64,000 nt of DNA from positions 1,550,001 through 1,614,000 of the forward strand of contig NC_009486.1 in the NCBI RefSeq assembly GCF_000016785.1, read 5' to 3'. Each line of letters starts with the position of its first letter. Position 1 is the stretch's first letter. The notes below the pieces were generated by a model. That model was not told the DNA's origin, ran no database searches, and saw only the letters and a list, made by a program, of their open reading frames with translations. The stretch is from Thermotoga petrophila RKU-1 (lineage in GTDB: Bacteria; Thermotogota; Thermotogae; Thermotogales; Thermotogaceae). Shown piece after piece: positions 39,686 to 41,207 of the stretch. A program made the position numbers and the translations under genes.

Positions 39686-39767
39686 CTCTTTTCGGAAATT
39701 AACGTTGAAGAAGGAATGTGTTCGTTGAAAAATTTTTCTTTCTGTACTGGTGTTTCTTCCGGTGTGA

Positions 39768-39776
39768 TGTTAGAAT
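39768..39776 (+). promoter_or_regulatory. Extended -10 promoter of the mgtE leader
   Basis: TGTTAGAAT reads as an extended -10 (TGn-TAGAAT). Transcription would begin near 39783, giving an 84-nt leader that contains the short ORF at 39815. No good -35 is visible. Confidence 0.5.
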
Positions 39777-39814
39777 AGTTCTACGCAGATGCTTTTTCGG
39801 GAGGTGATTTCTAA

Positions 39815-39841
39815 GTGGAAAGCACCAGTCTTCCTCCGTAA
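39815..39841 (+). CDS. Eight-codon leader ORF upstream of mgtE (MESTSLPP)
   Basis: GTG GAA AGC ACC AGT CTT CCT CCG TAA, preceded seven bases earlier by GGGAGGTGA, one of the strongest ribosome-binding sites in the window. It is out of frame with mgtE and stops 25 bp before the mgtE ATG. It ends Pro-Pro-stop, a context known to slow ribosomes. Its Pro codons contain CCTCC, which can pair with the GGAGG of the mgtE ribosome-binding site. Enterobacterial mgtA has an unrelated Pro-rich leader peptide that senses Mg2+; a similar logic here is inference. Confidence 0.5.
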   Translation: MESTSLPP

Positions 39842-39859
39842 AAAAGCAGTCCGAGGAGG
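39833..39859 (+). promoter_or_regulatory. Possible ribosome-binding-site-masking hairpin before mgtE
   Basis: CCTCC (39833-39837, the Pro codons of the leader ORF) is complementary to GGAGG (39855-39859) of the mgtE ribosome-binding site, with a 17-nt loop. The same CCTCC is also complementary to GGAGG of the leader ORF's own site (39800-39804). The helix is short for a hyperthermophile, so its stability at growth temperature is uncertain. Confidence 0.45.
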
Positions 39860-39866
39860 TGTGAAA

Positions 39867-41207
39867 ATGAAGATCAAGGTAGAGATCGATCTTCAGGAAT
39901 TGATCGAAAAAGGAGACTTCAAGACACTCAAAAGAGTTCTCGAACAACAGGATCCCGCCGACGTGAAGGAGATGATTGAAAAGCTTCCGCCTGACCTGAA
40001 AGTGGTCGTTTTTAGACTCCTTCCCAAGGATAAGGCCGCTGAAGTGTTCAGCGAACTCGAACCCGATGATCAGTTGGAACTCATAAAACTTTTCAGAGAG
40101 GAACGGCTGAAGGAGATTTTCGAATCGATGGATCCAGACGACAAGGTAGAACTGCTCGAAGAGATGCCCGCGAACGTGGTGAAGAAGCTCCTTTCATACC
40201 TTCCTCCACAGGAGAGGGAGGAATTGCTTCACATCCTGAATTATCCCGAAGATTCTGCGGCAAGGCTTGCCACCACAGAATACGTAGAGCTTTTCGAGGA
40301 TATGACCGTCAGGGAAGCACTGGAAAAGGTGAGAAGAGAAGGAAAGAAGAAAGAGAACATCTACTCTCTCATGGTGATAGATAGAACAAGAAAACTCAAG
40401 GGAACCGTTGAGCTCAGAGACATGATCGTTGCCGATCCCGATCAGAAGGTATCGGAAATCATGAACAAGGATCCTGTTTTTGTTCACGCCACTGATGACC
40501 AGGAACTCGCGGCGGAACTCATGAAGAAATACGACCTGATCATACTACCGGTAGTTGACAGCGAAGAGAGATTGATTGGTGTGATCACCTTTGACGATCT
40601 CGTTGACGTCATCGAAGAAGAGGCAACGGAAGACATACAGAAGATGGCCTCAATGAGTGTTACTTACACACCCTATTTCCACACTCCTGTATGGAAGTTT
40701 ATTTTGAAAAGATCCCCATGGCTTGTGGCGCTTCTTCTTCTTGAAAGTATAAACAGCAATATCATATCAGGCTATGAAAAATTCCTCGCATCAATACCAC
40801 TGATAGCAGCCTTTATTCCAACGATGATGGATGCTGGAGGGAACATTGGTTCTCAGATATCTGCTCTCATAATAAGAGGAATGAGTTTAAACGAGATAAC
40901 CGCAAAAGACTGGTGGAAGGTTCTGCTGAGAGAATCTCTGATAGGTTCTATCTTAGGTTTTATTCTTGCGGGTGTTCTGTACCTGAGGGCTTTTCTGATC
41001 TCTTCTGATCCCACATTGAATTTCGCCGTTGCAACAGCCTTACTCGTAGTAATTCTGTATGCAAATATCTTGGGCGCGCTTCTTCCCTTCATCGCCCGTA
41101 TCTTCAAAATTGACCCGGCCTTCATGGCAGGACCGCTTCTCACCACGATCGTCGACGTGACAGGCATCATGATATATTTCTACGTGGTGCACAGTTTCTT
41201 GAGTTGA
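39867..41207 (+). CDS. mgtE: Magnesium transporter MgtE
   Basis: 446 residues from ATG 39867 after GAGGAGGTG; an upstream in-frame ATG (39789) would pass through the leader and lacks a site. N-terminal MgtE domain with EExPxxxxxLLxxLP repeats (about 1-125), a CBS pair (about 130-250: YSLMVIDRTRKLKGTVELRDMI, LPVVDSEERLIGVITFDDLVDVIEEEATEDIQ), the plug helix, and a five-helix membrane domain with PLIAAFIPTMMDAGGNIGSQ and LLTTIVDVTG. Mg2+ binding between the CBS and N domains gates the channel in known homologues. Forms a plus-strand unit with the hydrolase genes after it. Confidence 0.96.
   Translation: MKIKVEIDLQELIEKGDFKTLKRVLEQQDPADVKEMIEKLPPDLKVVVFRLLPKDKAAEVFSELEPDDQLELIKLFREERLKEIFESMDPDDKVELLEEMPANVVKKLLSYLPPQEREELLHILNYPEDSAARLATTEYVELFEDMTVREALEKVRREGKKKENIYSLMVIDRTRKLKGTVELRDMIVADPDQKVSEIMNKDPVFVHATDDQELAAELMKKYDLIILPVVDSEERLIGVITFDDLVDVIEEEATEDIQKMASMSVTYTPYFHTPVWKFILKRSPWLVALLLLESINSNIISGYEKFLASIPLIAAFIPTMMDAGGNIGSQISALIIRGMSLNEITAKDWWKVLLRESLIGSILGFILAGVLYLRAFLISSDPTLNFAVATALLVVILYANILGALLPFIARIFKIDPAFMAGPLLTTIVDVTGIMIYFYVVHSFLS

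Follow-up and report, generated by a model that had tools for sequence, protein, structure and literature searches.

The mgtE locus of T. petrophila

The window, by which is meant the whole stretch of 64,000 nucleotides of Thermotoga petrophila RKU-1 DNA that was analysed, contains the Mg2+ transporter gene mgtE, arranged head to head with a minus-strand ORF (39659 to 38979). A leader ORF of eight codons (39815-39841) lies in the intergenic region between them. The features of the locus are as follows.

39768..39776, plus strand: extended -10 promoter element, TGTTAGAAT; no differences among seven Thermotoga genomes and G004
39799..39807, plus strand: Shine-Dalgarno sequence (SD) of the leader ORF, GGGAGGTGA, seven bases before GTG 39815; GGAGGTG in all eight genomes of family f1
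39815..39841, plus strand: leader ORF, GTG GAA AGC ACC AGT CTT CCT CCG TAA (VESTSLPP-stop); kept in the genus and the phylum with mostly synonymous change
39830..39836, plus strand: CTTCCTC, able to pair with GAGGAGG (39853-39859) of the mgtE SD; pairing kept in Thermotoga and G004
39833..39841, plus strand: Pro-Pro-stop, CCT CCG TAA, proposed slow-termination site; Pro-Pro-stop leaders precede 40/46 mgtE and 25/40 corA genes
39853..39861, plus strand: SD of mgtE, GAGGAGGTG; GGAGGT kept in all eight f1 genomes
39867..41207, plus strand: mgtE, Mg2+ transporter of 446 amino acids, start ATG 39867; Pfam MgtE_N, two CBS and MgtE domains

An earlier note, made from the DNA letters alone, had described this leader ORF and the two SDs, and its description was borne out in each particular: the SD and its seven-base spacing, the GTG start, the Pro-Pro-stop end, the CCTCC at 39833-39837 and the SD of mgtE. 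The GTG start is expected to be read as formyl-Met. A longer mgtE N-terminus, beginning at an in-frame ATG at 39789, was considered and rejected, the extension not being open in most relatives. In the 1.82-Mb genome the pattern GGAGG-NTGGA-CCNCCNTRA has a single match, which is the leader ORF locus.

The position of the extended -10 element predicts a transcript start near 39783, upstream of the leader ORF, and a simple promoter scan found no two-hexamer promoter at the locus. The extended -10 is the commonest promoter type in T. maritima, and the predicted 5′-UTR of the leader ORF, at ∼32 nt, falls at the edge of the 26-32 nt class called common in that species (PMC3636130). Further upstream of the -10 element, the sequence ACTGG (39746-39750) is invariant in seven Thermotoga genomes and is complementary to CCAGT within the leader ORF; because this places it ahead of the predicted start of transcription, it could be an operator or simply a chance match.

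Conservation of the leader ORF upstream of mgtE

In the seven Thermotoga genomes and G004, whose MgtE is 77% identical, the peptide occurs as MESTSLPP, MEGTSLPP or MESNNLPP. Changes in the leaders of f1 are chiefly synonymous (AGC/AGT, ACC/ACT, CCT/CCC, CCG/CCT and, at the stop codon, TAA/TAG), with a pN/pS of 0.16 and a dN/dS of 0.13; the corresponding values for family f2 are 0.14 and 0.09. The mean pairwise difference in f1 is 0.10 within the ORF, against 0.54 in the next 12 nt and 0.40 in the preceding 20 nt.

MgtE genes were found in 52 of 103 Thermotogota genomes, and their upstream regions were compared using the 46 orthologues with an identity of roughly 50% or higher. A Pro-Pro-stop mini-ORF with an SD run of 5-10 bases is present 11-33 nt upstream of 40 of these 46 genes. 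The peptides include MESTSSSFSLPP and MEGTSSSLSLPP in f2, MEYPSYSSNKPP and MDYPSCCSPLNKPP in f3, MEDYPGSRPP in f5, MGEDYPSSRPP in f11, and MDSTGSFIEFSDLPP, MEDPLSSYSNKPP and MDNCDSSKQKPP in f10. The remaining six orthologues have no leader, and two of them (in G003 and G014) apparently lie directly behind another ORF. As a control, dinucleotide shuffles of the 150-nt upstream regions were searched for ORFs of 5-30 codons running from a start codon to Pro-Pro-stop; such an ORF arose in 0.6% of shuffles, and in 0.09% when an SD run of at least 5 was also required. Set against the 40 of 46 real orthologues, the 0.6% indicates that the mini-ORF before mgtE is real and not a product of chance.

Conservation among relatives had been named beforehand as a test of the leader, and the start, stop and Pro codons are kept both in the genus and across the phylum. 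The locus has the marks of a regulatory leader peptide, namely a short SD-bearing ORF directly upstream of a gene, with its frame and peptide preserved. Judged from the sequence comparisons, selection has preserved the ORF, its strong SD, the early acidic residue and the Pro-Pro-stop end.

The same type of leader upstream of corA

All 103 Thermotogota genomes were scanned with a motif consisting of GGAGGTG, a start codon, GA, CCNCCN and a stop codon. This gave 23 matches, compared with one for the reversed pattern. Fifteen of the 23 precede mgtE, seven precede a CorA-family gene, and one (in G029) apparently lies inside another gene; all in-frame matches not belonging to mgtE precede corA, the identity of CorA being confirmed by Pfam. 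A survey of 40 corA genes in 40 genomes found a Pro-Pro-stop leader before 25 of them. The peptides include MELYSSEGDLPP and MELYSSESEPPP in f9, MSSESYTSSYSDEPLPRPP and MESYGSYSDEPLPRPP in f3 (genera g12-g14), MDYFSCSEDPLSRPP and MDSSSSSKDVVSLPP in f10, and MESASNTEIPLRPP in f7. The leader of G019, MARNAEMPTRPP, is counted among the 25, shares no other features with the rest and may be due to chance. Eight further f9 genomes carry close variants: MELYSSESEPPL-stop, ending in Pro-Pro-Leu-stop, in seven genomes of g27, and MDIYSSESAMPN-stop (MPN-stop) in G039.

The 40 genomes with an mgtE leader and the 25 with a corA leader do not overlap, so that 65 of the 103 genomes have the leader before one Mg2+ importer or the other and none has it before both. 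No leader was seen upstream of corA in the T. petrophila genome of the window. It is as if each lineage placed one main Mg2+ importer under leader control.

MgtE and CorA are unrelated families whose common trait is Mg2+ transport. Nothing argues more strongly for a role of the leader in Mg2+ homeostasis than this sharing, and the link of the leader to Mg2+ transport is strong. In standing before Mg2+ transporter genes (MgtE 40/46, CorA 25/40) the element is placed as Mg2+-transporter leaders are.

Conserved features of the peptide and its codons

The Pro-Pro end is present in all 65 leaders by the way the set was selected. The residue before it is L, R, K, Q or P, the peptides are 8-19 residues long, and the stop codons are TAA (38), TAG (20) and TGA (7). 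An acidic residue occupies one of positions 2-4 in 63 of the 65 leaders, and an AGT serine codon occurs within codons 3-8 in 64, the leaders being related by descent and so not independent. Of the serine codons at positions 1-8 of the leaders, 73% are AGT, versus 19% in the transporter genes, a preference that looks like a constraint on nucleotides or tRNA. An early acidic residue together with proline is also found in leaders of the mgtL, corL and mgtQ kind, an early Pro being present in only part of the Thermotogota families. Pro-Pro directly before a stop is a poor context for termination; such C-termini favour trans-translation and are found less often than expected in bacterial proteins (PMC3985003).

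The AGT bias raises the question of whether the leader is an RNA element that only resembles an ORF, the AGT segment being folded or bound and the peptide incidental. A local hairpin around CCGAGT can indeed be drawn in f3, but the f3 leaders yielded no covarying consensus fold. Third positions vary, yet the frame, the start, the stop (whether TAA, TAG or TGA) and Pro-Pro persist, and length differs by whole codons, which makes this explanation highly improbable.

Pro-Pro, as the most constant feature of the leader, might instead point to another signal, with proline supply, EF-P activity, polyamines or translation capacity being sensed and Mg2+ import being only the output; EF-P is known to relieve ribosomes at consecutive prolines (PMC3985003). 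We consider this very unlikely. Many leaders have only two Pro codons, there are no runs of one amino acid, and the target among in-frame scan matches is always a Mg2+ importer of one of two families and never an amino-acid gene.

Pairing, folding and the geometry of the importer SD

The earlier note had proposed that CCTCC masks the mgtE SD and that a ribosome paused at the Pro codons frees it. In strict form, this explanation holds that CCTCC/GGAGG pairing hides the importer SD, that the Pro-Pro-stop pause uncovers it in a SecM/CutF-like manner, and that low Mg2+ lengthens the pause. CutF provides a proposed precedent (PMC9973294). The CTTCCTC/GAGGAGG pairing is kept in f1, where 92.9% of cells are paired and one pair shows a compensatory change (U-A to C-G in G008 and G010, probably one event); 21 of 500 shuffles score as high. 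Masking by this pairing may hold in Thermotoga and one near relative. It does not extend to the rest of the phylum: the first Pro codon of mgtE leaders outside f1 and G004 is never CCT, and synonymous recoding gave no sign of selection for masking: compared with its recodings, the real mgtE SD is only slightly more masked in f1, hardly different in f2 and less masked in f3 and f10. The predicted leader folds are also marginal at 75 °C. For these reasons the pairing in Thermotoga may matter but is not the conserved principle, which is Pro-Pro-stop itself. Codon choice, recoding and geometry led to the rejection, outside f1, of the idea that the Pro codons generally mask the mgtE SD. A helix between CCTCC and the leader's own SD, likewise suggested in advance, was discarded; it shows no covariation, and a slid version pairs equally well.

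The core of the mgtE SD starts from -2 to 21 nt after the leader stop, and within 12 nt in most leaders. In G059 and G066 it abuts the stop codon, so a paused ribosome would cover the SD rather than free it. The idea of a freeing ribosome fares better in the corA leaders of f9, in which about 72-102 nt separate the leader stop from the start of the CorA match. Here (L178-L191) a strong hairpin beyond the leader stop includes the corA SD and, in g27, also the start-codon region. The consensus hairpin of g27 (-18.1 kcal/mol, 18 pairs) has numerous pairs altered on one side with pairing preserved and none altered on both, and in the predicted fold a ribosome standing at the stop codon of the leader would extend to the base of the SD hairpin. 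In corA leaders with short gaps the spacers are rich in A and the SD comes soon after the stop. Strict masking is unlikely overall.

Given stop-to-SD distances of -2 to 21 nt, no single physical mechanism fits all leaders, and this varied geometry suggests that what the leaders share is a ribosome detained at Pro-Pro-stop, ahead of the importer's ribosome binding site. Such a ribosome need not sense anything. The leader could simply be a loading ORF from which terminating ribosomes reinitiate at the importer, Pro-Pro-stop prolonging their stay. The short, non-overlapping gap in most leaders would suit such coupling, and a boost to initiation of this kind has been proposed for leader genes (PMC4833913). 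The importer, however, has a strong SD of its own, loading needs no specific peptide tied to Mg2+ importers, and the f9 corA gaps of 72-102 nt are too long, so that coupling alone is quite unlikely to be the explanation.

Search for M-box riboswitches

The M-box (ykoK) riboswitch controls mgtE and other Mg2+ transporter genes in other bacteria. Its apparent absence from the mgtE leader, remarked on before any scan, was upheld: a covariance-model search (RF00380) detected no M-box in the window, in 20 leaders or in any of the 103 Thermotogota genomes, with the positive controls B. subtilis and L. lactis both detected. Mg2+ transporter genes are the common association of the M-box and the Thermotogota leader, the M-box being an RNA aptamer.

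A proposed leader peptide responding to Mg2+

Taken together, these findings favour a leader ORF that is a cis-acting leader peptide gene controlling importer translation according to cellular Mg2+. Its parts differ in firmness. That a conserved, translated leader acts in cis on the importer is very likely, and the signal is probably Mg2+ or a Mg2+-dependent state of the ribosome. The complete proposal, including the sign of the response, we regard as about evenly balanced between right and wrong. With regard to the peptide-based Mg2+ control of mgtE put forward in the earlier note, the conserved leader, the selected Pro-Pro-stop and the occurrence of the same type before corA all speak for it, and what has to be given up is strict RNA masking as the rule.

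In the mechanism we propose, Pro-Pro-stop would slow termination. The leader usually ends 11-33 nt ahead of the importer's start, and whether the importer is initiated would depend on how the ribosome fares on the leader. At high Mg2+ the leader would be translated smoothly and the importer kept low. As Mg2+ falls, the acidic, proline-containing peptide would be translated inefficiently, either through a pause at Pro-Pro-stop or through early drop-off, and the importer would be made. Where the importer SD lies in a hairpin, as in f9 corA and perhaps Thermotoga mgtE, a paused ribosome would open it; a bare SD near the stop codon would be exposed once the ribosome is lost. Whether the held ribosome blocks, opens or delivers may differ by lineage. 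An importer switched on at low Mg2+ is the sign suggested by analogy with the enterobacterial mgtL and mgtQ leaders. A spacing of 11-33 nt leaves little or no room for an attenuator and no terminator-like site was found between the leader and mgtE, which points to control at the level of translation. Weighing against the proposal are the variable geometry, the seven Pro-Pro-Leu-stop and one MPN-stop variants of f9, the few importers without a leader, and the constraint on AGT, for which it does not account.

Comparison with known leaders

Peptide-based sensing of Mg2+ is known from enterobacteria. In the acidic, proline-containing leaders mgtL and mgtQ, and more weakly in corL, translation is efficient at high Mg2+, and the importer is switched on when translation becomes poor (PMC11282234, PMC11552253, PMC8092293). 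The Thermotogota leader resembles mgtL, the leader of mgtA, in being a short ORF before a Mg2+ importer with an acidic codon 2 and Pro codons (PMC11282234, PMC11552253). It differs in that mgtL has its EPDP early and acts by Rho-dependent transcription termination within a long leader, whereas here Pro-Pro stands at the stop and mgtE follows 11-33 nt on; no relation of sequence between the two tested positive. With corL of Salmonella and E. coli it shares a position before corA, corL being Mg2+-dependent, but corL again has a long leader with Rho-dependent termination and contains few Pro or acidic residues (PMC11552253). The short gap and the lack of a terminator-like site appear to set the present leader apart from mgtL and corL proper.

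The leader mgtQ of Salmonella mgtB is likewise an eight-codon ORF with a strong SD and acidic codons that acts on translation of a Mg2+ transporter; it does so through alternative stem-loops (1:2/3:4 and 2:3), its Pro codon mattering only as RNA (PMC8092293). In the Thermotogota leader, by contrast, Pro-Pro-stop is constant and most spacers are too short for a switch of the mgtQ type. Outside Mg2+ transport, leaders of the CutF-cutO and TnaC type arrest ribosomes near their ends, and a downstream gene is likewise governed by an ORF ending in a Pro-rich stretch or in Pro-stop. A stem-loop covering the cutO SD is thought by its describers to be opened by CutF (PMC9973294), and in TnaC the stall occurs with Pro at the stop codon (PMC3985003); both are larger peptides with other ligands (Cu and Trp, respectively) and no Mg2+ transporter. 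The best reading of these comparisons is a new peptide-based Mg2+ leader operating at the level of translation, one that would work like mgtL, mgtQ and corL but with a sequence and layout of its own.

A literature search covering few subscription journals found no paper describing a Thermotoga mgtE leader peptide. The chances are roughly equal for and against an undescribed, phylum-wide class of Mg2+-sensing leaders, defined by an acidic start, an AGU serine and Pro-Pro-stop, which precedes the MgtE or CorA of each lineage and senses through the ribosome. If so, the peptide-based principle would seem to be the normal way in which a distant phylum, made up mostly of thermophiles and with no M-box detected, controls its Mg2+ import. 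The leader would also mark the importer that is probably under Mg2+ control in each lineage, and would offer a natural, very short Pro-Pro-stop system for testing the coupling of Mg2+, termination and ribosome stability.

Leader ORFs of other kinds

In about 190 genomes of other phyla the Pro-Pro-stop pattern with AGT gave five matches, about as many as the reversed control, and the exact leader therefore looks limited to Thermotogota. No M-box reached the gathering score in the mgtE upstream regions of these far phyla. Upstream of about 60 far mgtE genes only three ORFs have an SD run of seven bases, and all three hold acidic-Pro motifs (EEIPEE, SEDVP and DEPDDPGP), for which 0.03 is expected in shuffles, the motif having been defined after the ORFs were seen. 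Leader ORFs among the far-phylum mgtE loci L096, L109, L146, L125, L140, L151 and L094 contain EEIPEE, SEDVP, DEPDDPGPR and SEPASS. In four far-phylum mgtE leaders a CCTCC-type (anti-SD) stretch before the mgtE SD is able to pair with it. The looser acidic and proline-containing leader ORFs before far-phylum mgtE hint that ribosome-based Mg2+ sensing might be widespread, and are offered as a lead only.

Within Thermotogota, two distant MgtE paralogues, in G059 (L077) and G051 (L074), are preceded by leader ORFs beginning MSNEDSVPDSSCIYKG and MEEDLPDSYKIIMNK, respectively. These start with acidic-Pro stretches, and the leader SD forms inverted repeats with codons further on; they are possibly mgtL-like leaders of another type.
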